Source: Pirellulales bacterium
Lineage (GTDB): Bacteria > Planctomycetota > Planctomycetia > Pirellulales > DATAWG01
Assembly (NCBI GenBank): GCA_035939775.1
Contig: DASZFO010000165.1
Span: 1 to 35,043, forward strand
DNA: 35,043 nucleotides
Direction: 5' to 3'
The translations under genes were made by a program, and so were the position numbers. The notes beneath the pieces were generated by a model. The model was not told the origin of the DNA, did not search any database, and worked only from the letters and a program-made list of their open reading frames with translations. Positions 163 to 35,043 of this stretch are shown in pieces (within the stretch, counting starts at the first letter, position 1; each line of letters opens with the position of its first letter).

Positions 163-177
163 TCTGTGGAGAATGCC

Positions 178-552: not shown

Positions 553-606
553 TTCAACACCGGCAAGTATGACGACGCTGAGAAATCGTTCAAGAAGACG
601 CTCGAA

Positions 607-1365: not shown

Positions 1366-1373
1366 ACGGATAC

Positions 1374-1449: not shown

Positions 1450-1478
1450 AATCTCCCGATGTGCCGTCCGCACGTTCG

Positions 1479-2192: not shown

Positions 2193-3380
2193 ATGAAATC
2201 CACCAGCGGGCTCGCAATCGCTTTCATATTCCTCCTCAGCTCTGCCGCATGGGCGGATGTGGGCGTCTTCACCGGCACCGGGCAGAGCGTCAAGCAGATT
2301 TCCAATGAGTCGGTGCAGCTCGTCTCCATCGACGTCACAATCCTGTTGGAGCGTGGCCGCTTCCTGTTTGACGGAGGGGTGCCGGGCTTGGACGAAGTGG
2401 AATATGATTGCCGGTTTGCATTGCGGAACCTGACGGATAAAGCGTGCAGCGTCCAAGTCGGATTTCCGATCGATTCCCAGTTTGCAAAGCTGCCGAACGA
2501 TCCAAAGCGCGCGGGTAAAGACTGGGTCTCGGAGTACAGTTTCAACGCGAGAGACGTTAAAAACACGTACCACGTCGATTGCCAGTTCAGCGATCCCCAA
2601 AAAACCAATTATGCCTACTCGGCAATTTTTACCTGGATGATAAACCTCCAGGCCAAAGAGACCAGGGCGCTAATCGTGCAATATCGGATTCCCATGTCGG
2701 TGACGCTCGCGTCCACGAGCAAGCGCGGACTCGGCGAATCGTCGAAAGGGATCCAGGAGCACCGGTGGATGCAGCTTTTGGACAGCAGCACGTTGGAAAT
2801 CGCCGGATACACCACCGAAACTGGGTCGTCATGGGCAGGCAGCGTCGAGAAAGCCACATTTAAAGTGGTTACCGCGCCCTTCGAGAAATACTTGGAACAT
2901 CGGGGACTTCTGGAGAGGAAGTTGGACGACCTGCCCGCCGATGAGCGGGAGATCATGAAGATGAACTATCCGGTTCATTACGTCTGGTCGTTTCGCGATG
3001 TTCAGCCAACTGGATGGCAACCTGTGGAGGGGGGCGTTAAGTGGGAGTACAAGGATTACAAGCCCAAGGACGCGATTACGATTCGCTATTTTCTAATGCA
3101 GTTTCCGCGACAGCATAGCGAAGTCGATCCTTGGGTCGACGCGATTCTCCGAAACATCCCCGACCCGCATCAACAGGCGGGCGAATTGGCGGTTGCCAAA
3201 CAAATCCTTATGGCGACATATGGCCAGGAGCCAACCGACGAGGCCGCCCGGGCGTTTGCCGAGGACCAGATCTGGTACGCTCGTAGGAAGGATTTTGCAA
3301 TCTCCAAGCTGAGCAAAGAGCAACAAGCAGTTCTGGCGGCAGTGGATCGCCGCCTGGAAACCATTAACAAACGGAATTGA
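2193..3380 (+). CDS. Secreted protein of unknown function
   Basis: ATG 2193 is chosen over GTG 2178 because GGGAGG lies at 2180-2185 and a normal signal peptide starts here (MKSTSGLAIAFIFLLSSAAWA, likely cut before DVGVF). The precursor has 395 residues. The first two thirds look like beta-rich secreted domains: VQLVSIDVTILLERG, then CRFALRNLTDKACSVQVGFP and later a segment ETRALIVQYRIPMS. This arrangement recalls DUF4424-type exported proteins (adhesion-like beta domains with an NxTDK turn), but the match is too weak to assign. The C-terminal 90 residues are mostly helical and charged (DEAARAFAEDQIWYARRKDF). There are no catalytic motifs I recognise. The oligogalacturonate lyase gene follows 72 bases later on the same strand; a functional link is possible but not shown. 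Confidence 0.75.
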   Translation: MKSTSGLAIAFIFLLSSAAWADVGVFTGTGQSVKQISNESVQLVSIDVTILLERGRFLFDGGVPGLDEVEYDCRFALRNLTDKACSVQVGFPIDSQFAKLPNDPKRAGKDWVSEYSFNARDVKNTYHVDCQFSDPQKTNYAYSAIFTWMINLQAKETRALIVQYRIPMSVTLASTSKRGLGESSKGIQEHRWMQLLDSSTLEIAGYTTETGSSWAGSVEKATFKVVTAPFEKYLEHRGLLERKLDDLPADEREIMKMNYPVHYVWSFRDVQPTGWQPVEGGVKWEYKDYKPKDAITIRYFLMQFPRQHSEVDPWVDAILRNIPDPHQQAGELAVAKQILMATYGQEPTDEAARAFAEDQIWYARRKDFAISKLSKEQQAVLAAVDRRLETINKRN

Positions 3381-3452
3381 ATACTGGGTGGCGATCGGTC
3401 TTTTCAGGCACTTTTCCGATCCAACTATGGATTCTCCGAGGGGGTTGCGGTC

Positions 3453-4943
3453 ATGCATCTACCGACGCAATTTCGTTGCGATATTTTGTTCGGCGTCATC
3501 GTTTGCGGCTTGGTCGGGTGCATGGGATCAACAGTGCTAGCCGCCGATGAGCCGCGCGCCGGCTCAAGCGATTCGAAGGCAGGCTCGCAATCGGCGAGCC
3601 CAACTCGCGCCTCGAGCGACATATCGACTGTCCAAGCGCCCGCGCCGGCCAACGAGCCTCCGACCGATTGGATCGATCCAGCCACGGGGCATCGCATCCT
3701 GCGGCTATCTCGCGAGCCGGGCACGTCGACGCTCTACTTTCATCAAAATGCTTACACGCCTCGCGGCGATAAGCTGTTCGTGACCATGACGCCGCCGCGA
3801 TCCGGCCGCGTCGCGCAACCCGGCGGCGGCGAGGCTCCGCCGGCGCGGGGCTTCGTGCCCTTTAGCTCGACGATGGCCACCATTGATCTTTCGGCGCTGG
3901 GCGTCGCGCCCGCCAAGATCGATAAGGTCGGCGACGGGGTTGTACGCGGCGCGGTGGTCGGCAGGAAGTCGCCCACCGTCTATTACATTCGCAGCGAGTT
4001 CGCTGACGAAGGGCGTGTCGACAAAGTCCTGGCCACGAATCTCGACACCCACGAGACCCGCGAGATCGGCAAATTGCCGTTTCGCATGGGATCGGGACTG
4101 GCGGTCAATGCAGACGACACACTTCTGGGGGGCAGTTTTGAGGAGTCACGACCACAACCGCCACAAAACGCCCGCGCCGCCCCCGGGCGGCGGCGCGATC
4201 TGGGGGCCCGCTTGGCGGCGCGGATTCCCATGCGCTTGTTCACATTCGACATCAAGACCGGCGAGGTGAATACTTTCAATCCCAGCACCGATTGGCTTAA
4301 CCACGTGCAGTTCTCTCCTACCGATCCGACGCTGATGATGTTTTGCCACGAGGGACCGTGGGAAAAAGTCGATCGGGTTTGGACGATCCGGACCGATGGG
4401 ACCAGCGCCAAGTTGATGCACCCGCGGACCATGCCCAATGAAATCGCAGGACACGAGTTTTTCGGCTACGATGGCCGCACGATCTGGTACGATCTGCAAA
4501 CGCCGCGCTCAGACAAGTTCTGGCTGGCCGGTGTGAGCATTGAAACCGGTGAGCGCCTGCGTTATCCCCTCGAGCGCTCGCAATGGTCGGTCCATTACAA
4601 CCGGTCGCACGATGGCAAGCTGTTCGCCGGCGACGGCGGCGGACCGGCGAGCGTGGCCAATCGCACACCGCTGCCGGAGAATCGGCCGCTCGACCCGCCG
4701 GGAAACGGGATGTGGCTCTATCTATTCACGCCGCAGCCCGGCGAGCAGGAGCCGATGAAAGTCGGCGGCGAGACGGTGAAAGTCGGCAAGTTCGCGGTGG
4801 AAAAACTCGTCGATTTGTCGAAGCACAACTACTCGTTGGAGCCGAATCTAACATTCTCTCCCGACAACAAGTGGATTATCTTCCGCTCCAACATGCACGG
4901 GCCAACGCACGTCTACGCCGTCGAGGTGGCGAAGGCGCCGTAG
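3453..4943 (+). CDS. ogl: Oligogalacturonate lyase (PL22 family), exported
   Basis: 496 residues; ATG 3453, with GAGGGG at 3439-3444 as ribosome-binding site. The family is clear from DWIDPATGHRILRLSREPG (72-90), LYFHQNAYTPRGDKL (94-108), HVQFSPTDPTLMMFCHEGPW (284-303), DRVWTIRTDG (307-316) and GHEFFGYDG (333-341): a seven-bladed beta-propeller. PL22 enzymes split unsaturated digalacturonate and short oligogalacturonides by beta-elimination, the last step of pectin breakdown before 5-keto-4-deoxyuronate metabolism, using a Mn2+ bound by histidines. His residues at 284, 299, 334, 381 and 386 are candidates. Unusually, it carries an export signal: residues 10-23 are hydrophobic and end in LVGC, a lipobox-like site, so it may be a lipoprotein; cleavage after VLA (30) is the alternative. 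There are two low-complexity inserts (115-132 and 231-258). The stop TAG lies inside the following REP. Confidence 0.88.
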   Translation: MHLPTQFRCDILFGVIVCGLVGCMGSTVLAADEPRAGSSDSKAGSQSASPTRASSDISTVQAPAPANEPPTDWIDPATGHRILRLSREPGTSTLYFHQNAYTPRGDKLFVTMTPPRSGRVAQPGGGEAPPARGFVPFSSTMATIDLSALGVAPAKIDKVGDGVVRGAVVGRKSPTVYYIRSEFADEGRVDKVLATNLDTHETREIGKLPFRMGSGLAVNADDTLLGGSFEESRPQPPQNARAAPGRRRDLGARLAARIPMRLFTFDIKTGEVNTFNPSTDWLNHVQFSPTDPTLMMFCHEGPWEKVDRVWTIRTDGTSAKLMHPRTMPNEIAGHEFFGYDGRTIWYDLQTPRSDKFWLAGVSIETGERLRYPLERSQWSVHYNRSHDGKLFAGDGGGPASVANRTPLPENRPLDPPGNGMWLYLFTPQPGEQEPMKVGGETVKVGKFAVEKLVDLSKHNYSLEPNLTFSPDNKWIIFRSNMHGPTHVYAVEVAKAP

Positions 4944-6093: not shown

Positions 6094-6211
6094 TTTTAAC
6101 ATTTGTTGCATTTGCGTGGCATTCGTTGCAAGACGATGGTATGATCTCACCATTGCGCACACGGAATGACCGACGCCAATGCAGTGTTTCTCATCGAGAG
6201 GAGACCGGATC

Positions 6212-8230
6212 ATGAAGTTTTGTCGTCTCATTGCATCCGTTGGCGTCGCAGTCTGTCTCCTTGCAGGTCATTCCGAGGTCAGTCGTTCGGCGCCGCTGCT
6301 GTTTCCGCAACTTGACGGCAACGGCAACGAGATTACCTCGCCCGTGACAACGAGTTTTCCCAGTGTTTATTACCCCGCTGGCATCGGCTTCAAGCCTGCG
6401 AAAACCGGCGACCCGATTTCGCCATACATCCCGGGCACCACCGCGGACCCGACCGCGCTCACCGTGACCGACGGCGGCAACATCCCCGTCCTTGACGTGA
6501 TCGTCGCCAATGCCAGCACCCTTAGCATCAACGGCACGGGTCAGGTCGGCGGAAACGTCGAGGTCCACGATACCAGCACCGTAAACATGAGCGGGAACAG
6601 CATGCTGGGTTTCCATCCGGGGATTGCCGCACTGTTTGGCTTCGACCAAAGCAAGTTGAATATCAGCGGCGGCACTATCGCCGGCGGACTGGAGGCCGAT
6701 GACCAAAGCGTTGCCACTCTCAGCGGTGGACAGGTTAACCTCGTAAACGGCTTTGGCGGAACGGTCAACGTAACTGGCGGCACCGTCGTCAACGGTGCTC
6801 AAGCGAACGCCGGTGGCACGGTTAACATCTCCACTCCTGAAGATTTTGGCGCCGGACTCGCCGCTTTCCAGGGTTCTCACATCACCATGAGCGCGGGCGG
6901 TCGTATCACCTTGCTTCAGGCCAGCGACAACTCCGACATCACGCTCAGTGGCGTTACCCTGCTTGGCAATGTTAACGCCGATAACAGCATTGTGAATTAC
7001 GATGGCGGGACGATTGTCGGCAATATCTTCTCCCAGAACGGCGCGGTCGTTTTCACCAGCGGCAATACGATGGTCACCGGCACCGTGACTGCCAACGGCG
7101 GTTCCGTGCACGTGAGAAGTGGCACTCTCACTTCCTTCCAGTCATCAGGTACGGGCGGTATTACGATGGACGACGGCGTCGTGGGTTCCACGGTTGTGGC
7201 CACCGACACGGGAGTGATCCAAGTGCATGGAGGCACGATCAATGGGACCGTGTCTGCTCAGGGGACCAGCGTCATCACTCTCGACGGTCCAACTGTGGCC
7301 GTGAATTCCGACGTTAACTCCTATGACACCAGCAAAGTCAATCTCTTCGGTACTCAAGTTACCGGCACCGTAAGCGCGACCGACACCAGTCTCATCAGCC
7401 TGTACGCCGCCAGCGTCACCGGTGATCTCGGGACGTTCAAATCTGGCTTGGCGGTCATAAACGGCGGCACCACCATCAGTGGTAATGTCGTTGCCTCTAA
7501 CTCCAGCCACGTTCAGTTGGTTGGCGGAAACGTCGGCTCGGTGACCACGTACAATTCCGCGAGTGCACAGTTGGACGGCAGCCAAGTTAAGGGGGACGTT
7601 TCCGCCCTGAATTCAAGTTCCATCATGCTTGATAACATGTTCGTCACGGGCAATATTACGGCACAGCAACAAAGCATTATCACGATCAGCGAGAGCATTA
7701 CCTACGGCGGACAAATCGAAGCGTTCGGCACCAGCCGCATTGTCCTGCTTGGTCATTTGCTACCGAACAACCAGCCACATGCGCTGAGTTTCGACGGCAT
7801 CGAGGGTAGCGGACCAAGCTTTCTCACACCCGATGGCGAACCCGCATTCGCCTCGATCTTCCTCCATGACAGCAGCTCGCTCGAGTTCGATGGTCACAGC
7901 TTGTCCGCCGCCCTCATCGATCCCATGAACGGCGGCGGCGCGTACAGCGAGTATGCAATCTCGGGTCTCTTTGCCGACGGCACCCCAATCCCGTCGGGTC
8001 TGGATCTGTTTGTCGCCAACGGTTCGGCCGCCTCCTTCCAACTCGTCGAAGCCGTCCCGGAACCGGCCTCCGCTTCATTGATGGCCGTCGCCGCGCTGGC
8101 TCTGCTTGCCCGCCGAAGACACACTGAGAGCCTATCCGAGAACCGCCTGGGCAAAGGGGACAGTCCCCGTTTTGCTCCGCGGACTGCGCAAAAGGGGGAC
8201 AGTCCCCGGCGGTTCTCGGATAGGCTCTAA
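6212..8230 (+). CDS. PEP-CTERM protein with repetitive, probably beta-helical body
   Basis: ATG 6212 is chosen over ATG 6179 because AGGAG (6199-6203) precedes it and the signal peptide begins there (MKFCRLIASVGVAVCLLAG). The product has 672 residues. The body is a long series of short units rich in S, T, N and G with alternating V/I (DTSTVNMSGNSMLG, QSKLNISGGTIAGG, SSHVQLVGGNVGSV), as expected for a parallel beta-helix. Residues 615-640 are a PEP-CTERM sorting signal: VPEP, a hydrophobic stretch, then ARRRH. Such proteins are exported and handled by an exosortase-type system. Oddly, after the Arg cluster the frame runs a further 34 codons through a repeat element (8127-8228), adding ENRLGKGDSPRFAPRTAQKG and more; the TAA lies at the element's edge. 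PEP-CTERM proteins normally end just after the Arg cluster, so this tail is acquired. Confidence 0.82.
   Translation: MKFCRLIASVGVAVCLLAGHSEVSRSAPLLFPQLDGNGNEITSPVTTSFPSVYYPAGIGFKPAKTGDPISPYIPGTTADPTALTVTDGGNIPVLDVIVANASTLSINGTGQVGGNVEVHDTSTVNMSGNSMLGFHPGIAALFGFDQSKLNISGGTIAGGLEADDQSVATLSGGQVNLVNGFGGTVNVTGGTVVNGAQANAGGTVNISTPEDFGAGLAAFQGSHITMSAGGRITLLQASDNSDITLSGVTLLGNVNADNSIVNYDGGTIVGNIFSQNGAVVFTSGNTMVTGTVTANGGSVHVRSGTLTSFQSSGTGGITMDDGVVGSTVVATDTGVIQVHGGTINGTVSAQGTSVITLDGPTVAVNSDVNSYDTSKVNLFGTQVTGTVSATDTSLISLYAASVTGDLGTFKSGLAVINGGTTISGNVVASNSSHVQLVGGNVGSVTTYNSASAQLDGSQVKGDVSALNSSSIMLDNMFVTGNITAQQQSIITISESITYGGQIEAFGTSRIVLLGHLLPNNQPHALSFDGIEGSGPSFLTPDGEPAFASIFLHDSSSLEFDGHSLSAALIDPMNGGGAYSEYAISGLFADGTPIPSGLDLFVANGSAASFQLVEAVPEPASASLMAVAALALLARRRHTESLSENRLGKGDSPRFAPRTAQKGDSPRRFSDRL
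8127..8228. repeat. Type-A palindromic element, 21-bp terminal inverted repeats, two GGGGACAGTCCCC cores
   Basis: The ends 8127-8147 (AGAGCCTATCCG...) and 8208-8228 are perfect 21-bp inverted repeats. Inside are two identical cores, GGGGACAGTCCCC at 8156-8168 and 8195-8207, both in the same orientation. The element is 102 bases long (34 codons), without stops in the gene's frame. Its last base is the T of the PEP-CTERM gene's TAA. A second copy of the same type lies at 32145-32264. Confidence 0.88.
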
Positions 8231-8236
8231 GCCGCG

Positions 8237-9745
8237 TTAGTGGGGTGCGATAAAGAAAGTGGCCGGCGTTGCACGAGGCAATGCCAACTCCAGGCTATAG
8301 TCGCCGTCATGCTCGGAGTGCGCCTCCACATGGTCGAGCGCCGGGCCGCCGAGTTTGTTGACTTTGCCGCCGTTGAAGAATCCGCCGCGATGGGATTGAA
8401 CATTGATCGAACGGATCCGCCAATCGGCGTGCTCACTCTGCAATACCGCGGCGAACGAGGGCCAAAGTGCGCTCAATGGATTGTCGGCCGCGGAATGGTT
8501 GGCGATGCGAGCGTGTAGATTACCGCAGATCGCCAGGACCTTGGCGCGGGGCGCGAGTTGTTGCCGCTGTTTCGCAAGACTGGCCGCCATCGAAGCATCC
8601 CTTCGCAGGCTCATCGCAATGACTTCGGGCTGCAATGCGAAATCAGGAGATTCCTGCGAGTCCTTAGGAGCCTTGTACTTCTTCAACAACTCCTCACCCT
8701 CCCGCTGCTCGGCGGCTTCGGTCTCGTCGAAACAGATTACCTGCCATCGCAATGGCGGCAACAGAGCCGCACGTACGAGCGCGAGCAGTTGGAGATTGCC
8801 TCGCCCGTCTCCATTCGGTTTGGCAAAGAAGCTCGGCAGGATGGGAGTTTTTCCGGTGGCCCAATCAATCAACGGCCCCCGCTGGTCTGAAGGGACTTCG
8901 AGGGCGAGGGCGCTGTATCCCAGCTTCGACAGCGGCGCGAGCAGCGCTGCACCTACCGCCGGCACCTCTTGCGTTCCGTGTGTTTCACCGAGGATCAGCA
9001 CGTCGCTCCGGGCGGCGAGATCCGTGATCGAGCGCTCCGCGCTCGCCGGCAGCGAATACGGCTCGAGCGCCGGCAAAGATAAGAGGATTGGACCGCCGCC
9101 ATACATTTCCTTCATCGTTTTGGCATAATCCGCCAACGGTTCCAGGCCAACCTCAGCCCGGCGTTTGTCCACGTTGGTTTCATCCTCGAGCGAGCTCGGT
9201 TGAAATTTGCCGTCGTCGTTTGTGAACTGAGTGCCGTATCTCTGTTTCTTGCCTTCGGCGAGCAGGACCCGGTCGGTCAGGTAGGCGAGATTGGATTGCG
9301 ACACTTCGCCCTTGGGGAGCTTGGCCATCAGATCGAGGCACTTCCGCTGGAACTTCCTGTTATGATCCGCGTGCTGCACGAGCAGCCAGGCCGCGTTCGC
9401 TCCGTCTTTCCCCACCATCGCGATCGTCGGCCAGCCGCGTTCGTCAATGACCTGCATCAGCCATTTTGTATTCTCGCCGTCGACTTTCTCGCACTCGGCA
9501 GTGATCTTTTCGAATATGGTCCTTTCCTCCGCGCTGAGTTTATCCTTGGACAACGCTTCGACGTTCGCCCCATGCTCGCTCGCCCAATTGATCTCACGAT
9601 TGCGAACTTCCTGGTCCGTCTTGAATCGCTCCAGCAGCTCGCGTCGCAACTCCGGCTCCGTGACATTGTCAGGCTGGGAACGATCCTCCGCTTGGGCCGC
9701 CGGCGCGCCCAAGCACAGCAAGAGTATTGCCGTCAGCTTCTTCAT
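8237..9745 (-). CDS. DUF6624 domain fused to an erythromycin-esterase/ChaN-like domain, secreted
   Basis: 502 residues; signal peptide MKKLTAILLLCLGAPAAQA (cut before EDRSQ). Residues about 30-212 form a DUF6624 domain: NTKWLMQVIDERGWPTIAMV (92-111), GANAAWLLVQHADHNRKFQ (115-133), AYLTDRVLLAEGKKQRYGTQ (154-173) and NVDKRRAEVGL (191-201). DUF6624 has no settled function; the His-rich GANAAWLLVQHAD motif is its signature. From about 235 a second domain begins: DVLILGETHGTQEVPAVG (248-265), ALEVPSDQRGPL and, near the C-terminus, VLAICGNLHAR. The ETHG and GNLHA pair is the layout of erythromycin-esterase-like, ChaN and TraB/Tiki-type hydrolases, where Glu and His form the active site. The combination suggests an exported hydrolase; its substrate is unknown. 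ATG 9745 has only a weak GGAAAG ribosome-binding site. The 3' end lies six bases from the type-A repeat of the converging PEP-CTERM gene. Confidence 0.75.
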   Translation of the reverse strand: MKKLTAILLLCLGAPAAQAEDRSQPDNVTEPELRRELLERFKTDQEVRNREINWASEHGANVEALSKDKLSAEERTIFEKITAECEKVDGENTKWLMQVIDERGWPTIAMVGKDGANAAWLLVQHADHNRKFQRKCLDLMAKLPKGEVSQSNLAYLTDRVLLAEGKKQRYGTQFTNDDGKFQPSSLEDETNVDKRRAEVGLEPLADYAKTMKEMYGGGPILLSLPALEPYSLPASAERSITDLAARSDVLILGETHGTQEVPAVGAALLAPLSKLGYSALALEVPSDQRGPLIDWATGKTPILPSFFAKPNGDGRGNLQLLALVRAALLPPLRWQVICFDETEAAEQREGEELLKKYKAPKDSQESPDFALQPEVIAMSLRRDASMAASLAKQRQQLAPRAKVLAICGNLHARIANHSAADNPLSALWPSFAAVLQSEHADWRIRSINVQSHRGGFFNGGKVNKLGGPALDHVEAHSEHDGDYSLELALPRATPATFFIAPH

Positions 9746-19853: not shown

Positions 19854-22800
19854 TTATCGGCTCCTCAACATCTTGCCACGGCGCAAGGCCGGTAACAGGC
19901 AGGCGAGGCTGCCGAGAACGATCAGCACGATGCTCGACGGCTCTGGCACGGACGATAGGCTGCTGCCGGCGCCCACACCCCCAACGGAACCACCAAGCGA
20001 ACTCCCAGGTGAGGAGCTGCCGGGGGCGAGCGGAGTCGAAGACCCTAGCCCAGCGCCGAACGGCGCGTCGCCCGTCAGCGAGCCAGCCAAAGTCAGGCCG
20101 CTCGCCATCGGACCGCCGGTCGAAGTCGACGCGGCGATTGTCACCGAGGCGGTGTGCGTCGCATCGCCGCCGATGATCAGCGCGCTTTGAACGATGTGGT
20201 CGGCGGTCAGATCGCTACCGCCGTTGACCGTCGTGACGCCCGTGGCGCTGGCGGCCTGATCGATCCCGCCCGTCTGCTGATGCGTGCCGCTGACCACCAG
20301 GTTCCCGTTGTTGACCACGTGAACGCGGCTTGCCGCCGACGCGGTTGAGGACAAATCCGAGACCGAGCCGGCCAACACCAAATTCGCGCCGGGGGCGACT
20401 GTGATGGAAACTCCGCTATTGACCGTCGCCGCGCCGGTCGTGTTATTGAATCCGAGCGTGCCGGAGTTCACCGTGATCGCCACGCCAGTTGCGAATGTCG
20501 AAACACCGGAGACCGTAACGGTCCCGGGGTCGCCAGAGGAGCTGCCGAGGGCATTATTGATCGCGAGATTGCCGTTAAAGACGCCTCCGGTAAAGTTCAC
20601 GCCGTAACCGCCAACCAGGACTTGCCCGGTGGTATTCGTCAGGTTCAAGGTCGTGCCCGCGCCGCTGCCCACGGTCAGGCTGCCCATGGTCACGGTGGCG
20701 CCCGCCGCGGTTTGCCCCACGTCGATCGTGGCACTGCTGCCACCGGGCAGGACTACGTTATTGGCATAAACGCTGGCAATACCGGGACCGATGCTGAAGT
20801 TGCTGATGAGCTGCGTCGAATTCGAACCGCCCGTGGCGCCGCTAAACCCGAAAAAGGCAGTGGGTCCGCCCAATAGAGTAACCAGATCGGAGGGAAGCGC
20901 ATGGGTATTCGCAAACGTGTTGCCTGTCACGGTGTCGGTGAGGACTTCGGTGAGTGTTTGGGCCGTTGCGTTGTACACCAAGGCGACATTGATGGGGTCG
21001 CCGCTCCCCTGGTTGATCGAGCCAGTCGCGCTGAACGGGCCAATATTGCCGTTGACGTTGACACCGCTACCGACCGTGTTGGGGGGATAGACGTTGATTT
21101 CGTAAGCGGCACTCGGTGTGATGCCGCTGTACGCTAAGCCGCCCCCGCCGCCTCCCAAGGCCGTCAAGCCGCGCGGGTCGTTCTGGAAAATAACCGCGGT
21201 GCCGTCGGCCAAAGTGCCCGAGCCGGTCGCAGTGTACGTGAATCCAATGGCGAAATTGCCGGCGACCGATTGTTTCGTGCCAAAGAAGGCCGAACGTTGT
21301 TCACCGTTCACGCCGTCGGTCAAGGTCAGTACATTGCTGTTGATCGGGTTGCTGGCGATTCCCGCGTTGTTCACCGTCCACGGAGTCCCCGCGCCGGTGA
21401 CACTCGTGCTCGTGCCGCCAAACCCGCTGAGGGTGGGGTTGGTGACGATGGGGCTAGTAGACACGACGCGCAGTGTCGTCGCGTTATTGAGCGTCACTGG
21501 GCCGGTGCCAAGTGATCCAGGATTGTTGCCAATGACCAAGCCGGTCGATGCGGCGAGGATCGTGCCACCCGAATAGGTTCCGTTGCCGCTCAAGGAAAGC
21601 ACGCCAGGGCCCGTCTTGGTGAGGCTAAAGGCCCCACCGACCGTTGTCAGATTGACTTGGCCCGCGCCGGCGCTCGCGCTATTGGCGACGTTGATCGTCG
21701 CATTGCCGGTGAGCGTCGTCGGACCAGCGAACGTGAGGCTATAGGCCGTGTTGGTCGTATCGGGGCTGGCGACATTCAGCGTTGCGGCGCCAATGCTCAG
21801 TCCGCCCAGCGTGGCGGTTAGCGAATTGACGATGTTGACCGTCGAAGTCGCCGTCACGACCAGGTTGTTCGCGTACGTCTGAAACGCGCCAAGGGCCAAG
21901 GGACCGGTTGTCGGCGCCAGGACCGTGTTGGGAATGGCCACCGTGCTGCCTCCGGTGTCGGGGCCACTGTATTGCACTAACAACCCCTCGCCGCCGCCCC
22001 CTTGATAATAGCCGATGTCGAGTTTGTGCAAGCCGGAAGTGAGGGTGACGGTTCCGGTATGCGTCGTTGAACCTTGAAAGGCGTTGTTCGCCACCACTGC
22101 CGTATCCGCGGGGCTGCCCGCGGGGCCGCTGCCATCGACGAACAGGTCGCTGCCGTCGTCACTTGTGGTGCTGAAGGTGTAGCTGCCGGCGGCTCCGATA
22201 TTGATGTATCCAGTGAAGTAGGTTTCGAAATTTGTCGTGCTCGAAAAACCGTAGAGGGCGTTCGTGGGACCGGCCGTGTTGAACATGGCGTTGGGCCCAC
22301 CGTAGTTATTGTTGCTGAAATTAAGGTTCGCCTTGCCGCCGGTGGACGTCAAGGTGCTGACGGCGAGGGTTCCGGCAATGTTGCTGAAATGGGTCGTCAT
22401 CGCGGTATAGCTCTCGGTGACCGGCGGGCCCGCGTTCTGATAGTCAAGATCGGGGCCATTTTGATTTCCGTTATTAGGCGAATTGTTGTAGAGGTTGACA
22501 GTTAGTCCCGGCATCAACTGGCCTTGCAGGTTGAGTGTGGCACCCTGGAGCGTTACCGAGCCGGTACCGAGCGGCGAGCCGGGCGAGGGCCCGGCGATCA
22601 GCGTGGCGCCACTGCCAACCGTCGTTCCGCCGCTGAAGGTATTATTGCCGGTAAGCGTGAGCGTGCCCGCGCCGGCGGTCTTCGTTACCGCCCCGGTCCC
22701 ACTGATGGTTCCGCTATAGGTCTGAGGATTGGGGTTGGCAAAAGCAAGCACGGCGTTATTAATGATCCCCGGACTGGCGACCGAACCATTGTGCGTGCTG

Positions 22801-25800
22801 CCGTCTCCCAACTGCAATGTTCCGCCGGTGATGGTGGTCGTGCCCGTATAGAGATTCGCGTTGGTCAGCGTGAGCGTGCCGGCGCCGATTTTGTTCAGCG
22901 ATCCGGGTCCGCTCAATACGCCCGAATAAGTGGTGCTGCCGCCATTATTGCCGACGCTCACGGCGACGGCTGCCGCTCCGGTGTCCTGCAGCGCCAGGTT
23001 GGCCGAGCCTTTAAGTCCGCCGAGCGTGAACGCGCCGACGCTCGGGGCGAATAGAACATTGTTGGCGACGGTCATGTTGAGCGTGCTGTCTTGCAAGGCA
23101 TTGGTTGAGCCAAGCGTCAGTGTCGCAGCGCCGATGACATTCGTGTCGCCGGTGAACGTGTTGTTGCCGGAGAGGGTCAAGCCGGCGTCGCTCACGATGA
23201 GGCTCAGAGCGCCCCCGCCGGCGCCGTCGGCCAAAACGCCGGCGTAAGAACTGGCGGCGAGCGTGTTGACCGTCAAGGTCGCGGGGGTCGCGTTGGCGTT
23301 GACGACTTGGGCCGTGGCGCTGGTGCTGTTCAAGCCGCTGATCGTGATGCTATTGCCGTTCAAGGCCAGCGTGCCGGTGCTGACCGGACCGAACGTGACC
23401 GCGCTGGGAGTTGTCGAGTTGAGTGCGCCAGCGTTGCCGACTCGCAACGTGCCTTGCTCGACATCCACGCCTCCCGTGAAGGTGTTGCTGCCGCCGAGAA
23501 CCCAGACGCCGGCGCCGGTCTTGGCCAGCCCGAGCGTTCCGCCAGCCGATCCATTCCCGATGACGCCGTTGACGGCGTTCGCCCCGTTGTTGGTTCCTGT
23601 CAGATTCAGCACGGTGTTGTTGGTTGCAGTGCTCACGCCGGTGACGCCGCCGCCGATAATCAGGACGTTGGCGGTATTGGCGGCGTTGCTGGAAAACGTG
23701 TAGCTTCCACTGACTCCTTCCAAGACCAGGGGAGCGTTGATTGTCTCCGTGTTGGCGACCCGCACCGTGGTCTGAATCTTGCCCCCCGTGGTCAGCAGCA
23801 GGGCGTTGCCGCCGGTCGTGCCGATCACATAGGCCCCCGTGCCGGCCAGGTCGAACGTGATGTTCTGCAGATTGCGATTCAAGTCGGGCATCGGGGTCAA
23901 GATGGTGCTGGCGTTAGTGAAGGCGGCCAGATCCGTGTTGGTGGTGGTTCCATCGTGGACGCCGGGGACCAAGCCAGCCACCCAGTTCGCCGGGTTGGCC
24001 CAGTTCGTATCGGTGGGGGTGGCAGACCAAGTCGGGGCCGGAGTGACCACCAGATCGATTTCCGTTCCCGCAGGATTTTTCACGAAGCCCTCTTGGAAGC
24101 CGGAGATGCCGACGGCGATGCTGAACGTCGTATTCGTGAAGTTGCTGGTGCTCGACTCGGTGATGATTTTGTAGGTGCCTGTGCCAAACCCGCCGGTGTC
24201 GGTGAGATTCACGAGGACGCTGCCCGTTCCCGCGCCCGGCAACGTCAGCGCGCCGACGCTGGCGATCAGGTCCGAAGTGCCCGGAGCGCCGAACTTGTAA
24301 TTCAGGATCGAACCGCCGTTGAGCGTCAGCGAGCCGACGTTCAAGGTGCCGATCGAGGCGCCGCCGGGGGCCACGATTCCGGCAGCGCCAGTCCCTCCCG
24401 ATCCGTTGACGATCAATCCGTTGGTGATCGTGGCGCTGCCGCTAATCGTGGGGTTGCTGCCGGGGGTCGCCGCGGCCCCGCCGACCGTTACGCCGCTGGA
24501 AGCCAGCGAGATGCCCGTGGACAACATCAACGTGCCGCCGCTGACGATCGTCGGACCGGTGTAGGTCTGCGAGGTCGAGAGGGTCATCGCACCGGTGCCG
24601 GCCTTCGTGAAGCCGCCGCCGCCGCTCAATACGCCGGAATACGCCGTCGTCGAGTTATTCCCGCCGGCGGTCAGGTTGACGGCGGCGGGGGTGGGAGTAG
24701 CAATGTCGGCCAGCGCTAGGTTCCCAGAACCGGCGAGAGCGCCGAATGTGGCCGATCCCAGCCCGCTGGTAAACAGCACGCTATTCGATTTCGTAATGTT
24801 GACAGTGCTATTCTGAAGCGCTAATGGGTTTCCGACAAACAGCGTGGGACCCCCGGCTGGATTCGCCGTGATGTTCGTGGGGCCATTGAAGGTGTCGGCG
24901 CCGGTGAGGGTCAAACTACTGCCGCCCCCAACGCTGCTATCCAAGAGCGTCAGACCGCCATCCGTCCCCGTCCCGCCATGGAGCAAGGGCTGGGAAATGG
25001 TGATGCCGAAACTGTTGAGATCAATGATAGCGCCCCCCGCCATGACGTTGGAGGCGGTCAGGGCCTCGATGTGAGTGTGAACCGCAGGCCCGGGAGGCGT
25101 TGCCAGCGTTGGGTTATTATTGACGATGTCGGGATTGCCGGCGCCCATGAAGATGGGGAGCGCGGTCGTGGGGGCACCGTTGACGCGCAGCGTGCCGCCG
25201 TTGAAGTTGAACGTGCCGGTCCCGCCGTCATTGACCTTGAAGATGGCCGCCACATTGAGCACGCCACCCGACAGATTGTAAACCCCAGCGCCCGAGGCGG
25301 TGTTGTTGCCGTTGAATCCAATGCCAGATATCACTGTTCCCTGTACGATGTTAGGGTCTGGCGCGGTGATCGGCGTATTCAAGGCATTGACGGTGCCACC
25401 CGTCTGATTGAAGGTCCCGGGGCCGCTCCAACCCATCTGGATGACCTCATTGCCCGTGGCGGTGCCCCCGTGCATGGCGTTGCCCCCTTCACTATAGGGC
25501 GACGTCAAACCCGCGTTCAAGGTGCCAGCGCTGAGGTTGTAGACACCGAGGCCCGTGTCGCCGATGCTGACGTCGTTGTCCACGTTGACGGTCGTGTTGG
25601 CGGTGGTCTGATTGTAGGTTCCGTTTCCGTTGCCGGCGGTGCCGGCCATGATTCGCGCCGCGTTGAGCACCGACGGAGATGCCACGGTGCCGGAGATGTT
25701 GTATTGGGCGATGCCGCCGCCGTTGCCGTTGCGGACCCAGTTCGCGTTGACCGTGCCGCCGGTCTGGTTGAAGGTGCCGGAGGCCAGAGGAGCGGAACCA

Positions 25801-27002
25801 TTGCCGTCGTTGATGTCCATGCTCTGCAATTGGCTTTTCATGGTGACGGCGGAGTATACCGTGCCGCTGAGGTCGTCGAGCACGCCACCGCTAATGTTGT
25901 ACGTGCCCTGGCCGTTGTCGAAGCCGACGCGGAAATTCCCGTTGTCGTTAGCACCTCCCGCGTAGAGAGGTCCGACATTGACCGTGCCGCCGGTCTGGTT
26001 GACGACGCCGGTCGAATGGTCCTGGCCGATCCAGAAGGAGCGCGTGGCGACGGTTCCCGTGCCGCTGATGTTGAACGTGCCGCTGGTGGTGATGCTTCCC
26101 CGGCCGACCATCAGCCAGTTCTGGGAAGTCACCGTGCCCCCGCTCAAGTTGTAGACGCCAGTGCCGCCGTCTCGACCGATGGCAGTCCAGTTGTTGTTGT
26201 CCGTTTGGAAGTTTATCGTGCCGCCGTCTTGATTCACCGTGCCATGGCCCCCCTGGCCGATATTGGCGTCGCCATTGGGATTGTTGATGGTGCCGCCGTG
26301 AATATTCATGACGCCGACGCCATTACTGCCGTCGGCGACGTGCAAGTCATGAATATTGGCCACGGCATTGCCGCTAATGGTAAACGTGCCGTGACCGTTG
26401 TCTGCAACAACCAACCCACCCGCTGGCCCGGAATTCAACACGGAGTTGCCGGTCATGGTCATGATGCCCGTGCCGTTTTCGCCGACGCGAATGGTGTCGT
26501 TGGGACTTTCCAGATCGGCCGTCCCCGACATGTTATAAGTGCCCGTATCGCCCGAATTTCCCACGGATTGGCCGAGCCGAAACCAGCCGTTGCCGCCGCC
26601 TGCCCCCGTGCTCAATGTTCCGGCCGTTTGATTGAGCGTGCCGCTGCCCGTCGAGGCCGTACCGGGAGGATTACGATTCTGTCCATCCGGACCAATGTAG
26701 ATTCGATTCATCAGCGGGTTGGTAAGCGTTCCCGTGATCGTGGCGGTCAGACCGTTGTCGACGTCGGCTGTGTCGCCGGTCCCAGGCAGAGTGCCGGTTG
26801 TCATCGTGTTGAGGTCGGTCCAATTGTTCGGGTCGTTCCAGTCGGTACTCGTGCCAACAGGCGTGAACTCAAACGTGTCGGCCAAAACCGTGCCGGCCGA
26901 GGCCAGGCAGAGCGCGGCAACGGCAATCGCGATTGGACCGCAGGTGCAGAATCGCCGAACAGAAACACTAAGGCAACGACGAGTGGTCGAGGAAGATAAC
27001 AT
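19854..27002 (-). CDS. Giant PEP-CTERM adhesin-like protein with beta-strand repeats, PA14 and L-type-lectin-like domains
   Basis: ATG 27002 gives 2,382 residues; ATG 27038 is a less likely start. The signal peptide ends ALCLASAGTVLA-DTFEF. Residues about 60-640 are T5SS/PEP-CTERM-associated repeats, each with GTYNISGG or GTFNQTGGTVN. From about 690 to 1840 come autotransporter-associated beta-strand repeats: TKAGTGAMTLSTSQTYTGPT, AKTGAGVWVLGGSNTFTGGV, NKIGAGTLTLTNANLYTGTT, TKTGPGVLSLSGNGTYSGGT. Residues about 1560-1685 form a PA14 domain (YFTGYINIGAAGSYTFSTTS, then DDGSDLFVDG). About 1857-2075 looks like an L-type lectin domain (RSAFFGTKQSVAGNFAIGF; DGTAVIFQNDP; TAFFGFSGATGG). The C-terminus is VPEP, a hydrophobic stretch and RRGKMLRSR, the exosortase sorting signal. 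The protein is presumably surface-exposed and binds glycans. It is Gly/Thr/Asn-rich, with almost no Cys, and the frame is intact throughout. Confidence 0.9.
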   Translation of the reverse strand: MLSSSTTRRCLSVSVRRFCTCGPIAIAVAALCLASAGTVLADTFEFTPVGTSTDWNDPNNWTDLNTMTTGTLPGTGDTADVDNGLTATITGTLTNPLMNRIYIGPDGQNRNPPGTASTGSGTLNQTAGTLSTGAGGGNGWFRLGQSVGNSGDTGTYNMSGTADLESPNDTIRVGENGTGIMTMTGNSVLNSGPAGGLVVADNGHGTFTISGNAVANIHDLHVADGSNGVGVMNIHGGTINNPNGDANIGQGGHGTVNQDGGTINFQTDNNNWTAIGRDGGTGVYNLSGGTVTSQNWLMVGRGSITTSGTFNISGTGTVATRSFWIGQDHSTGVVNQTGGTVNVGPLYAGGANDNGNFRVGFDNGQGTYNISGGVLDDLSGTVYSAVTMKSQLQSMDINDGNGSAPLASGTFNQTGGTVNANWVRNGNGGGIAQYNISGTVASPSVLNAARIMAGTAGNGNGTYNQTTANTTVNVDNDVSIGDTGLGVYNLSAGTLNAGLTSPYSEGGNAMHGGTATGNEVIQMGWSGPGTFNQTGGTVNALNTPITAPDPNIVQGTVISGIGFNGNNTASGAGVYNLSGGVLNVAAIFKVNDGGTGTFNFNGGTLRVNGAPTTALPIFMGAGNPDIVNNNPTLATPPGPAVHTHIEALTASNVMAGGAIIDLNSFGITISQPLLHGGTGTDGGLTLLDSSVGGGSSLTLTGADTFNGPTNITANPAGGPTLFVGNPLALQNSTVNITKSNSVLFTSGLGSATFGALAGSGNLALADIATPTPAAVNLTAGGNNSTTAYSGVLSGGGGFTKAGTGAMTLSTSQTYTGPTIVSGGTLMLSTGISLASSGVTVGGAAATPGSNPTISGSATITNGLIVNGSGGTGAAGIVAPGGASIGTLNVGSLTLNGGSILNYKFGAPGTSDLIASVGALTLPGAGTGSVLVNLTDTGGFGTGTYKIITESSTSNFTNTTFSIAVGISGFQEGFVKNPAGTEIDLVVTPAPTWSATPTDTNWANPANWVAGLVPGVHDGTTTNTDLAAFTNASTILTPMPDLNRNLQNITFDLAGTGAYVIGTTGGNALLLTTGGKIQTTVRVANTETINAPLVLEGVSGSYTFSSNAANTANVLIIGGGVTGVSTATNNTVLNLTGTNNGANAVNGVIGNGSAGGTLGLAKTGAGVWVLGGSNTFTGGVDVEQGTLRVGNAGALNSTTPSAVTFGPVSTGTLALNGNSITISGLNSTSATAQVVNANATPATLTVNTLAASSYAGVLADGAGGGALSLIVSDAGLTLSGNNTFTGDTNVIGAATLTLGSTNALQDSTLNMTVANNVLFAPSVGAFTLGGLKGSANLALQDTGAAAVAVSVGNNGGSTTYSGVLSGPGSLNKIGAGTLTLTNANLYTGTTTITGGTLQLGDGSTHNGSVASPGIINNAVLAFANPNPQTYSGTISGTGAVTKTAGAGTLTLTGNNTFSGGTTVGSGATLIAGPSPGSPLGTGSVTLQGATLNLQGQLMPGLTVNLYNNSPNNGNQNGPDLDYQNAGPPVTESYTAMTTHFSNIAGTLAVSTLTSTGGKANLNFSNNNYGGPNAMFNTAGPTNALYGFSSTTNFETYFTGYINIGAAGSYTFSTTSDDGSDLFVDGSGPAGSPADTAVVANNAFQGSTTHTGTVTLTSGLHKLDIGYYQGGGGEGLLVQYSGPDTGGSTVAIPNTVLAPTTGPLALGAFQTYANNLVVTATSTVNIVNSLTATLGGLSIGAATLNVASPDTTNTAYSLTFAGPTTLTGNATINVANSASAGAGQVNLTTVGGAFSLTKTGPGVLSLSGNGTYSGGTILAASTGLVIGNNPGSLGTGPVTLNNATTLRVVSTSPIVTNPTLSGFGGTSTSVTGAGTPWTVNNAGIASNPINSNVLTLTDGVNGEQRSAFFGTKQSVAGNFAIGFTYTATGSGTLADGTAVIFQNDPRGLTALGGGGGGLAYSGITPSAAYEINVYPPNTVGSGVNVNGNIGPFSATGSINQGSGDPINVALVYNATAQTLTEVLTDTVTGNTFANTHALPSDLVTLLGGPTAFFGFSGATGGSNSTQLISNFSIGPGIASVYANNVVLPGGSSATIDVGQTAAGATVTMGSLTVGSGAGTTLNLTNTTGQVLVGGYGVNFTGGVFNGNLAINNALGSSSGDPGTVTVSGVSTFATGVAITVNSGTLGFNNTTGAATVNSGVSITVAPGANLVLAGSVSDLSSTASAASRVHVVNNGNLVVSGTHQQTGGIDQAASATGVTTVNGGSDLTADHIVQSALIIGGDATHTASVTIAASTSTGGPMASGLTLAGSLTGDAPFGAGLGSSTPLAPGSSSPGSSLGGSVGGVGAGSSLSSVPEPSSIVLIVLGSLACLLPALRRGKMLRSR

Positions 27003-27055
27003 GGACACTCTCTCTCGGGCTTGGGACGGTGAATGCAATGTGCTTAAGAGGACTA

Positions 27056-30250: not shown

Positions 30251-31489
30251 TCAACTCGACGTTCGAGCCAGTTTCGGTTGGTCCGCGGCGGCCGCAGTAT
30301 ATTTGGCCGCCTCGGCCACCAGTTGCTCGAGTTCAGCGAAGCTCACCGGCTTCGTCATGTGGCGATTGAAACCGAGTTCCAGTGCGCGGGTCTTGTCCTC
30401 GGGCTGTCCCCAGCCGGTCAGCGCGACGAGATAAATCGATCGGCCCCAGGCCTGTTTGCGAATTCTCTGGGCGATCTCGTAACCGCTCATCTCCGGCAGG
30501 CCGATGTCCAATAGCGCCAACTCGGGCTGCAGCATCTCGCTGGCCTCGATGGCGGCCCGGCCGTTGTAGGCAATGTGAACGTCGTGCCCCATCCGCCGCA
30601 GGAGCAGCGCCAAGCTGTCCGCCAAATCCTTGATGTCATCCACGACGAGCACCCGGCACGGCCTCGCCATCGGCTTGGACGCCGCATCGTTGTGTTCAAC
30701 CCGCGCCGGCGCCGGAGGCGCCGCGAGCAGCGGCAAGCGCACGGCAAACTCACTCCCGCGGCCGGTGCCGTCGCTACGAACATCAACCCGGCCGCCGTGC
30801 AATTCGACCAGCCGTTTGACGAGCGCCAGACCAACGCCAAGCCCGCTTCCGCTTCGCCCCGGCGACCGTTCGACCTGCGTAAACAATTCGAAGACATGCG
30901 GCAACATCGGGCCGGGAATACCGATCCCCGTATCGCGAATCGAAATCACCACGTCGCTCCCCTGGCGCGCCGCCTCGAGCCGGATGCTGCCGCGGGCGGG
31001 CGTGAATTTCGCCGCGTTGTTCAGCAAGTTCAGAAACACTTGCGTCAATCGGACAGGATCCGCTTCGATAGGGAGCGGCTCCGGCGGCAGGACAACCGTC
31101 AACCGCTGATTCTTTTGGTCGATGAGCGGCCGGCTGGAATCCACGGCGTTGGCGACGATCGGCGCCAAATGGGTGCGCTCCTTATGGAGCGCGATCTTGC
31201 CGCGGGTGATGCGCGAAACATCCAGCAGATCGTCCATGAGCCGCGTCATCTGTTGGACCTGCCGCTCGATTACATCGTGCGCCGCGGCCACGTCGGGATC
31301 GGGCGATCCTTTTATGCGAAGTAGATCGACGGCCGTGCAAATCGGCGCCAATGGATTGCGCAGCTCATGGGCCAAAACGGCGATGAACTCATCGAAGCGA
31401 TGCTTCAATTCAGCCATCTCCGTCGCGGGGCGGGTCGCGGACGTGTCCGGCTCGGCCGGCGTCGGATCGTCGAAATCAAGAGCGCTCAT
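30251..31489 (-). CDS. Hybrid histidine kinase without sensor domain (HisKA-HATPase-REC)
   Basis: ATG 31489 gives 412 residues (TTG 31495 is the alternative). Residues numbered from the ATG: H41 in AHELRNPLAPI is the phosphorylated histidine, N158 in NLLNNAAKF the N box, DTGIGIPG the G1 box and GSGLGVGLALVK the G2 box. After an Ala/Pro linker (257-272) there is a receiver domain with VLVVDDIKD, D328 in LLDIGLPEMSG and K380 in TKPVS. There is no membrane helix, PAS or GAF domain; the first 25 residues are acidic and low-complexity, so the signal must come from a partner. Phosphate could pass to its own REC and on to another protein. The BON gene lies 72 bases upstream and the TMTC-like gene 47 bases downstream on the same strand, suggesting one transcript. 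Residues 1-30 could mediate partner binding. Confidence 0.9.
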   Translation of the reverse strand: MSALDFDDPTPAEPDTSATRPATEMAELKHRFDEFIAVLAHELRNPLAPICTAVDLLRIKGSPDPDVAAAHDVIERQVQQMTRLMDDLLDVSRITRGKIALHKERTHLAPIVANAVDSSRPLIDQKNQRLTVVLPPEPLPIEADPVRLTQVFLNLLNNAAKFTPARGSIRLEAARQGSDVVISIRDTGIGIPGPMLPHVFELFTQVERSPGRSGSGLGVGLALVKRLVELHGGRVDVRSDGTGRGSEFAVRLPLLAAPPAPARVEHNDAASKPMARPCRVLVVDDIKDLADSLALLLRRMGHDVHIAYNGRAAIEASEMLQPELALLDIGLPEMSGYEIAQRIRKQAWGRSIYLVALTGWGQPEDKTRALELGFNRHMTKPVSFAELEQLVAEAAKYTAAAADQPKLARTSS

Positions 31490-31561
31490 GGCCAATTATG
31501 CGAACTCGGCATAAAAGGGGGACTTGTCGCCGGGAGGCGAGCATCGCGGATAAAGACCTTG

Positions 31562-31915
31562 CTATGCGGTTCGCCGGCGCGGGCGAGCATGTTCGGCAAC
31601 CTGAGTGCAGTCGTCGACTCGCCGCACGCCTTCGATGTTCCGCAATAATGCATGCATCACTTGCTTGGTGTAAAACGTGGGGAGCCGTCCGCGGAGGATC
31701 AGCACGCCCGCATGGCATTCGCAACTGACGTGGCGCAGAGCCAAATACGGAGACTGCCGAAGAAGTTCGATCGCTTTCTCGGTTGTCGAACTGAACGCTC
31801 GGTTTCTTCCAAGTCCCCTCAGTGTGTCGTGCAGCGCATCGCGCAGCACCGGCGAAAACCGCTCCGCCGAAGTTGATAGATTTGATTGGTGTCGAATCGC
31901 CCCCAGCAATTCCAT
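31562..31915 (-). CDS. Small BON-domain protein
   Basis: ATG 31915 is chosen for GGGAGG seven bases upstream; the frame to 31933 would read through that site. The product has 117 residues. Residues 46-108 form a BON domain: KAIELLRQSPYLALRHVSCE, then HAGVLILRGRLPTFYTKQVM and EGVRRVDDCTQV, with the conserved glycines (G70, G76) and the final strand. BON domains bind phospholipids or peptidoglycan and are found in OsmY-type stress proteins. Here there is no signal peptide, unlike OsmY. The first 40 residues are Ser/Arg-rich. The position ahead of the hybrid kinase suggests that the two are expressed together. Cytoplasmic or membrane-surface action is likely but unproven. Confidence 0.75.
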   Translation of the reverse strand: MELLGAIRHQSNLSTSAERFSPVLRDALHDTLRGLGRNRAFSSTTEKAIELLRQSPYLALRHVSCECHAGVLILRGRLPTFYTKQVMHALLRNIEGVRRVDDCTQVAEHARPRRRTA

Positions 31916-32144
31916 GATCCGCCCTCCCGGCAAAGTAATTGTGCTTGGTGTTCAAGAAATGAGACCGGATTCCCACGTCGAACCGGGAGCGGGCCGAATT
32001 GGACCAAGCTGCAATCATTCTTGAATCGCGCAATCCAGGCGAGAGCACAGCGCCACCGTCTGCCTAGCATGTTACAGGCGGAAGGGTTGCTCGCAAGTCG
32101 GGAGAACCGCCCATTTGACGTGCTGGAATTCGCTACACGGCGTT
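31916..32144. other. Noncoding region between the BON gene and the type-A repeat
   Basis: It probably holds the promoter of the BON-kinase-TMTC-like genes. I find no good pair of promoter boxes. The minus-strand frame 31476-32048 is a shadow of the BON gene region. Confidence 0.35.
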
Positions 32145-32264
32145 AGAGCCTATCCGAGAACCGCCGGGGACTGTCCCCTTTTGTGAAGCGGGCACCATCG
32201 TCCGATGGTCGGGAACAAAAGGGGACTGTCCCCCTCGTCTTCGTGCGGTTCTCGGATAGGCTCT
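32145..32264. repeat. Type-A palindromic element, second copy
   Basis: Ends 32145-32164 (AGAGCCTATCCGAGAACCGC) and 32245-32264 are perfect 20-bp inverted repeats, the same as at 8127-8228. Cores GGGGACTGTCCCC lie at 32166-32178 and 32221-32233. The middle adds its own hairpin (ACCATCG/CGATGGT around 32194-32209). Length 120 bases. It is intergenic, 96 bases before the kinase start. Confidence 0.88.
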
Positions 32265-32359: not shown

Positions 32360-33496
32360 ATGGCTAAGAAAAAGAGCCGGTCGCCGATCGGGGAGCGCAA
32401 GAGAGCAAAGCAGTCGCTCGAAACGCCCCCAAGTGAGCAACGCCCCGTCGCGCCGGCCGCGATCAAGAAAGCCGAGCAGGCCGCCGATCGCCCGGCCGCT
32501 GTCGTCGGAGTCGGTGCATCGGCCGGCGGATTGGACGCCTTCCGGCAATGGTTTGCCGCCATGCCGTCCGACACCGGCATGGCCTTTGTACTAATCCAGC
32601 ATTTGGATCCCAACCATCCGAGCCTGACTGCCGAATTGCTGAGCAAGCAAACGAAGATGCCCGTCGTTCAAGTGACGGATGGAATGCACATTCTGCCGAA
32701 CCACGTATTTGTCATCCCGCCCAAGACCTATTTGACGATCCGCGGCGAGACGCTGCACCTCACCGAGCCGCTCGAGCGCCGCGGGCTACGGGTGCCCATC
32801 GAGATCAATCAACCGCCGATGGCGATGGAAACGATTCGCGACATTAGCAACCGGAAACGCCTCGAGCAGCAAATTGCCGAAATTGCCGAGCAAGAGCGGC
32901 AGACTTTGGGCCGAGAATTGCACGACACGATCGGTCAGCAGCTCAGCGGCCTGAGCATGATGGTTGCGACCCTCAAGGAGCAAGTCGGCGACGGTTCGGT
33001 CCACGCCACGGCCATCGACATGTTGTCAGCCATCGTCGAGCAAACCAAGCAACAACTCCGCGGTCTTGCCAGGGGGTTGGTCGCGATTCCGATCGACGCG
33101 AAGGGGCTGCCGGCGGCCCTGCGCGACTTGGCCATCGAGGTCACCCAGTTGTATAAGATCAAGTGCCAATTTGATTGCCTCGACGACGTCGCACTCGACG
33201 ACGACTTTGCGGCGACGCAGTTGTTCCTGATCGCGCGCGAGGCGGCGAACAATGCCGCGAGGCACAGCCATGCCCGACAAATCGTCATTGAACTCGATGA
33301 CCATGACGGCCTGCGGACCTCAGTGCGCGACGATGGTCGGGGAATGCCGGCGAAAACCAGCGGTGCGTCAGGAATGGGCTTGCGAATCATGGAGCATCGC
33401 TGCGGCCTGGTTGGCGGAACATTGAAGATCGAGGCGGCGCCCGGTGGTGGGACGGTTGTGAGTTGCCGCTTGAATCGTGAGCGCGAACGCGCATGA
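32360..33496 (+). CDS. Truncated CheB methylesterase domain fused to a NarL-type histidine kinase
   Basis: 378 residues from ATG 32360. Residues 46-147 are the front of a CheB methylesterase: VVGVGASAGGLDAFRQWF (nucleophile S54), LIQHLDPNHPSLTAELL (H81), MHILPNHVFVIPP and finally ERRGLRVPI. In full proteins this continues into FFRSL and the GTGxDG stretch with the catalytic Asp, then CheR and PAS domains. All of that is missing here; at about 148-158 the sequence jumps to METIRDISNRKRLEQQI, the end of a PAS domain. Next come a HisKA_3 domain (GRELHDTIGQQLSGL, H188) and a HATPase domain (REAANNAARH, VRDDGRGMP, GMGLRIMEH). The methylesterase should be dead; the kinase looks complete. The next gene, its response regulator, overlaps by four bases. 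It probably arose by an in-frame deletion. Confidence 0.87.
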   Translation: MAKKKSRSPIGERKRAKQSLETPPSEQRPVAPAAIKKAEQAADRPAAVVGVGASAGGLDAFRQWFAAMPSDTGMAFVLIQHLDPNHPSLTAELLSKQTKMPVVQVTDGMHILPNHVFVIPPKTYLTIRGETLHLTEPLERRGLRVPIEINQPPMAMETIRDISNRKRLEQQIAEIAEQERQTLGRELHDTIGQQLSGLSMMVATLKEQVGDGSVHATAIDMLSAIVEQTKQQLRGLARGLVAIPIDAKGLPAALRDLAIEVTQLYKIKCQFDCLDDVALDDDFAATQLFLIAREAANNAARHSHARQIVIELDDHDGLRTSVRDDGRGMPAKTSGASGMGLRIMEHRCGLVGGTLKIEAAPGGGTVVSCRLNRERERA

Positions 33497-34188
33497 CGAG
33501 ACCTAAAAACCGCGCCGCCGAATCCAAGCAGCCGCTCGCCCCCAAGGCCCGCGTGTTGATCGTCGACGACCATGAATTGGTTCGGCAGGGTCTGCGCGCC
33601 CTGATTTCGAGTGACCCCGGTTTGGAGGTCTGCGGCGAAGCGCCGGATCTGGCGAACGCCATGCAATTGGCCCGCAAATGGAATCCCAACATCGTGGTCG
33701 TGGACGTTTCGCTAGGCGATACCAATGGACTCGACCTTGTCCGATTGCTTCGAAAACATTGCCCGGACTCGAAGACGATCGTCTCCACGATGCACGAAGA
33801 GAAGGTCTACGGCGAGCGCGCCTTGCGAGCGGGGGCACATGGTTACGTATGCAAGCAAGACCCGGCGGGGACGGTCTTGAAGGCCATTCGTCAGGTGCTC
33901 GACGGCAGGCTCGCCTTCGGCGAGGAGTTGACGAATCGCGTATTGCAGCGCGCGATGAACGAACATGGGCAAGTCGAAGAATCTCCCATATCAACCCTTT
34001 CCGACCGCGAGTTGGAGGTGTTTCGATTGATCGGACAGGGTTTAAAGGCTCACGAGATCGCCAAGCGGCTTCATGTCAGCCCGAGCACACTCGATACCTA
34101 TCGCAGCCGCTTGAAGACCAAGCTGAACGCCGGAAGCGGCGCCGAACTCACCCGCCAGGCCGTGCAATGGGTGCTGGAGAATCCCTGA
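33493..34188 (+). CDS. NarL/FixJ-family response regulator (REC + LuxR HTH)
   Basis: 231 residues. ATG 33493 overlaps the kinase stop as ATGA, showing coupled translation. The receiver domain has VLIVDDHELVRQGLRALI (D25, D26), D71 in VVVDVSLGDTNGLDL as phosphate acceptor, and K121 in HGYVCKQDP. The DNA-binding domain, about 165-225, is a LuxR type: LSDRELEVFRLIGQGLKAHE, then LHVSPSTLDTYRSRLKTKLN. It acts as a transcription factor phosphorylated by the neighbouring kinase. The N-terminal 16 residues (MTRPKNRAAESKQPLA) are an added basic tail. Target genes are not known; the following 100 bases before the rRNA promoter hold no candidate gene. This kinase-regulator pair is read in the same direction as the rRNA. 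Confidence 0.93.
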   Translation: MTRPKNRAAESKQPLAPKARVLIVDDHELVRQGLRALISSDPGLEVCGEAPDLANAMQLARKWNPNIVVVDVSLGDTNGLDLVRLLRKHCPDSKTIVSTMHEEKVYGERALRAGAHGYVCKQDPAGTVLKAIRQVLDGRLAFGEELTNRVLQRAMNEHGQVEESPISTLSDRELEVFRLIGQGLKAHEIAKRLHVSPSTLDTYRSRLKTKLNAGSGAELTRQAVQWVLENP

Positions 34189-34290: not shown

Positions 34291-34318
34291 TTGACATGGG
34301 GCAGCCGATGATTACAAT
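34291..34318 (+). promoter_or_regulatory. Ribosomal RNA promoter
   Basis: TTGACA (34291-34296), a 16-base spacer and TACAAT (34313-34318). The 16S gene begins 338 bases later, a normal leader length. A second TTGACA (34472-34477) is part of the boxA instead. Confidence 0.7.

Positions 34319-34656: not shown

Positions 34657-35043
<387 letters not shown>

Follow-up and report, generated by a model that had tools for sequence, protein, structure and literature searches.

A sensor kinase gene of the Pirellulales genome G000 was probably shortened by a lineage-specific in-frame internal deletion of the orthologous gene (~985 codons or ~2.95 kb on the closest relative), leaving a compact soluble kinase that is still paired with a downstream LuxR-type regulator. 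The gene (32360-33496, forward strand) encodes 378 residues and is located on contig C165, which as a whole is the window analysed here (35,043 bases of a 6.39 Mb genome). Pfam matched CheB_methylest at residues 49-147 (E 1.5e-23) with profile positions 1-96 of 174 only, HisKA_3 at 179-240 and HATPase_c at 286-373; CheR and PAS were not matched in the protein. This agrees with the original prediction of an ORF carrying half of a CheB methylesterase and a compact kinase, from which CheR and most of PAS had gone; the kinase is otherwise intact, and of PAS nearly all sequence is missing. The most probable reading is that the sensing front end of the kinase was lost, with the half of CheB left behind as a remnant. 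The deletion ends, the broken CheB triad, the intact kinase motifs, the operon and the synteny can be read directly from the DNA and its comparison with relatives (Table 1).

Table 1. Features of the short kinase gene and its direct neighbours, in window coordinates.
Feature	Position	Strand	Basis or remark
Small BON-domain protein	31562..31933	-	Divergent, upstream of the kinase; G001 has this gene at the equivalent position
N-terminal low-complexity tail, residues 1-46	32360..32497	+	Start MAKKK; full-length relative MAKKR
CheB methylesterase N-terminal half, residues 47-147	32498..32800	+	Pfam, alignment to 1a2o/1chd, half-model
Catalytic Ser codon S54	32519-32521	+	CheB half
Catalytic His codon H81	32600-32602	+	CheB half
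Last-PAS remnant: last beta-hairpin and DIT-type linker (EINQPPMAMETIRDISNRK)	32801..32857	+	PAS-kinase linker alignment
HisKA_3 dimerization/phosphoacceptor domain	32894..33079	+	Pfam; DesK superposition 155-376
Phosphoacceptor His188 in ELHDTIGQQ	32921-32923	+	HisKA_3
HATPase_c catalytic domain with N, D and G boxes	33215..33478	+	Pfam; VraS Z 17.3, DesK Z 16
NarL/LuxR-type response regulator (REC + GerE), cognate	33493..34188	+	Pfam; 4-base overlap with the kinase stop

Full-length counterparts have the layout CheB-CheR-PAS-PAS-PAS-HisKA_3-HATPase, are mostly 1,240-1,760 aa long and are followed by the same regulator gene in many genomes across the phylum. CheB and CheR domains were complete in the six relatives examined. 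One of the full-length proteins, L037 (contig C337 of G089), has 1,404 residues with complete CheB, CheR_N and CheR, three PAS regions, HisKA_3 and HATPase_c. For the CheB half it was the top match (65% identity over residues 47-149), and for the kinase half it ranked first among complete genes (50% over 159-376); a partial gene in the related genome G046 reached 51% to the kinase half. In the kinase tree, the short protein and L037 were grouped at 100/100. Because both halves find their best match in L037, the short gene corresponds to an L037-type gene minus ~985 residues. Alignment with CheB-CheR-PAS-kinase proteins, which had been suggested along with the original prediction, placed the ends of this missing stretch at approx. 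residues 192 and 1176 of L037.

The neighbouring genes tell the same descent. The regulator is 56% identical to the one behind the full-length kinase in G089, and the same regulator follows full-length genes in G001, G005, G074, G366, G412, G491 and others; the BON gene is common to the source genome and G001, which belongs to the same family. Tree, LuxR regulator operon and BON synteny thus support descent from a CheB-CheR-PAS histidine kinase. With kinases of this type (L037, L040 on contig C73 of G001 and L041 on contig C21 of G005), the short protein has in common the N-terminal tail, the first half of CheB, the PAS end with its linker, HisKA_3, HATPase_c and the downstream REC-GerE regulator, and with G001 also the BON gene, whereas the C-terminal half of CheB, CheR_N, CheR and the whole PAS domains (~985 residues) are missing. 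A best match of both halves in the same protein together with the same neighbour genes is, judged by sequence comparison, far beyond chance. An origin by gene fusion was rejected, as both halves best match one full-length protein and both neighbours are shared.

Two further arrangements were observed around such genes. On contig C187 of G046, a full-length CheB-CheR-PAS kinase (L039) is split into two overlapping frames (3-3476 and 3025-3951), and a near-identical kinase end is found on another G046 contig (L038); these are frameshift or assembly variants of one gene type. In the window, a hybrid kinase (HisKA, HATPase_c, REC) is divergently placed at 30251-31495 on the reverse strand, and in G089, too, the full-length gene has a divergent neighbour upstream, a receiver-domain protein.

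The short form was searched for in the order (196 genomes), the class (397), the phylum (392) and another class of the phylum (397), which gave ~1,180 genomes after removal of overlaps. No match spanning the CheB half and the kinase was found in these ~1,180 genomes of the phylum, and ORFs matched by both halves carried the two matches ~3 kb apart. These ~1,180 genomes thus gave no support for a stable family of short forms, which the original prediction had considered. Among plasmid records, no place covered 80% of the query. Several candidates were inspected and dismissed: an Opitutaceae protein (L036) and a viral-contig protein (L109) seemed at first to span both halves, but L036 proved to be a kinase of the membrane type, with an early match to something other than CheB, and L109 has complete CheB-CheR and lacks this kinase; L057 is a CheB ORF of 322 aa next to which the kinase has an ORF of its own, L056 is a CheB-CheR ORF of 490 aa, and neither is a short form. 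The literature searched held nothing specific on the CheB-CheR-PAS-kinase family or on a kinase with half a CheB.

The join lies between codons 147 and 148 (32800/32801), in frame and after RGLRVPI, just where the original prediction had set it. The full-length protein reads RGLRMPIDFF at this position. After the join, EINQPPMAMETIRDISNRKRLEQ aligns with the ends of PAS domains in other kinases from the same order (e.g. QIDNPPLFTGIIRDISALKELQ), and EINQPPMAMETIRDISNRK with PAS C-terminal ends such as QIDNPPLFTGIIRDISALK. According to this alignment, the PAS remnant is the last beta-hairpin with the DIT-type linker that leads into the coiled coil of the kinase and not the last helix of the domain, as had been supposed. 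The join region (residues 139-152) had low confidence in the model and was predicted to be disordered; the first long helix of the kinase model starts at residue 153, immediately after it. GC3 was 0.752 and 0.748 on the two sides of the join, and GC was likewise unchanged. The P-I-D/E codons were possibly common to both sources and may have offered a short homology at the join.

The join is known from one assembly of 384 contigs that is 96.05% complete and 2.72% contaminated. The true gene could be of full length and the assembler could have joined two parts of it, e.g. where coverage was low or where both carried the same short word, such as the P-I-D/E codons. This is considered unlikely: the fragmented state of the assembly, the lack of the short form in any other genome searched and the break of the contig itself in a 16S rRNA gene would all suit such an artefact, but the join preserves the frame exactly, for which chance gives 1 in 3, and falls between domain elements, the overlap with the downstream regulator is intact, and no other piece of the assembly contains the missing 2.95 kb. 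The missing block was not found elsewhere in the genome, where the best other CheR was 30% identical and located beside a CheB on contig C264. Altogether, the kinase-regulator operon is ordinary apart from what looks like a single in-frame deletion event or a join made in assembly. The short form is so far a single allele from a single assembly, in which nothing points to a new function having been kept. If real, it would be a clean example of the shrinkage of a multi-domain sensor kinase by one in-frame deletion that removed two enzyme domains and the sensors and left kinase and regulator joined, and a system for asking what signal output persists without input domains.

The catalytic triad of CheB consists of Ser, His and Asp. 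In alignments to solved CheB structures (1a2o), S54 in GASAGG corresponds to Ser164 and H81 in QHLDP to His190 of Salmonella CheB. The equivalent of Asp286 is present in full-length L037, ~25 residues beyond the end of CheB similarity in the short protein; the C-terminal half of CheB with the catalytic Asp region is absent from the latter, as originally proposed. Since the catalytic Asp is missing, the CheB half is not expected to have methylesterase activity. It resembles CheB methylesterases (1CHD, 1A2O, 3SFT) in the fold of residues ~151-257 and in the catalytic Ser and His, and differs from them in lacking the Asp, the C-terminal half of the domain and the receiver domain.

In a model of the whole protein, the kinase filled the best structure matches and CheB was not listed, so the CheB half was modelled alone. 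The half-model had a mean pLDDT of 78.8 (mostly 70-92) and matched CheB catalytic domains (residues ~151-257) with Z scores of 8.6-10.5, namely, 10.5 for 3SFT (97 aligned residues, 2.3 Å) and 9.2 for 1CHD (98 aligned residues, 3.0 Å), compared to values of up to 4.5 for unrelated chains. The CheB half is thus predicted to retain the CheB half-fold, in the sense of compatibility with this fold and not of stability, as the alignment feeding the model contained CheB relatives. The tail in front of it is unstructured, with a pLDDT of ~40-48 for residues 1-40 of the predicted model.

No decay is visible in the CheB half, and this speaks against its being a passive remnant of an old event. It contains no stop codons, shows no loss of codon bias and keeps 24 of 27 strongly conserved CheB columns, compared to 20-26 of 26-29 in full-length proteins. 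In 13 three-way rate tests, 6-13 changes were unique to the short protein and 2-9 to L037 (12 and 5 in one example). The lean, suggestive of a mildly faster rate in the CheB half, had the same direction in all 13 tests, though the outgroups were not independent, and none was significant, the largest chi-square being 2.88. No such lean was seen for the kinase half, which changes no faster than in L037. The pattern fits equally well with an event that was fairly recent and with constraint that persists to some degree; given that the CheB half has no significant rate change and its half-fold is predicted to be kept, the deletion may be recent.

A CheB half that still works as an input module, i.e. 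as a ligand- or protein-binding half-domain or as a surface for dimerization or for interaction with chemotaxis proteins that drives the kinase through the coiled coil, would mean that a new sensor kinase can arise from a 1,400-residue hybrid by nothing more than deletion. The conserved columns, the predicted half-fold and the intact reading frame and codon usage speak for such a role; nevertheless, it is highly improbable, as the short form is conserved in no relative, the CheB half, unlike the kinase half, collected somewhat more unique changes than its full-length sister against the 13 outgroups (none significantly), and the join region is predicted to be disordered. The role as a new sensor or scaffold that had been put forward for it is not supported. 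Under the preferred reading of a deletion in an orthologous kinase gene, the CheB half would sit as a passive remnant in front of the signalling coiled coil, devoid of methylesterase activity.

The kinase half contains the phosphoacceptor His of HisKA_3 and the boxes of HATPase_c and matches the invariant columns of the alignment. Its model superposes on DesK residues 155-369 (e.g. 5IUK). In this superposition, in the HisKA_3 and HATPase_c layout and in its NarL/LuxR partner, the protein resembles NarL-type kinases of the DesK-VraS-NarX/NarQ group (HPK7), but it has neither a membrane domain nor a canonical sensory input domain and carries half a CheB instead. The short kinase would be expected to retain autophosphorylation and phosphotransfer, and kinase and regulator would remain a working pair. 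With the loss of CheR and the whole PAS domains, the normal sensory input would be lost and the output would be set at a default or different level.

There is little chance that the gene is in decay and that the short kinase is a step towards loss without selected function. The one-off occurrence, the missing input domains and a dispersed repeat element inserted ~95 bp upstream of the start could point in this direction, yet the kinase motifs, the ORF and its start are intact, as are the regulator and the 4-base overlap, and the kinase half keeps pace with its full-length sister.

The repeat element is an imperfect palindrome of ~120 bp at 32145-32264 with the arms AGAGCCTATCCGAGAACCGC and the inner part GGGGACTGTCCCCTTTTGT, which ends 95 bp before the kinase start. 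Its RNA fold had -83.3 kcal/mol (z -9.3). It is found in at least 40 places of the genome at 83-100% identity (40 of 296 candidates were scored). A promoter scan found no sigma-70-type promoter before the kinase gene. A strong promoter-like site, TTGACA-16-TACAAT (11/12), was observed at 34291-34318, where it precedes the 5' part of an apparent 16S rRNA gene (~34660-35043) within which the contig ends. Elsewhere in the window, a 683-residue ORF (6179-8230, forward strand) without a Pfam match adjoins a protein of 502 residues that contains DUF6624 and a weak ChaN/Tiki-like stretch (8237-9745, reverse strand). A protein of 2,394 residues (19854-27038, reverse strand) combines autotransporter-type PATR repeats with a PA14 domain and a legume-lectin-like stretch.
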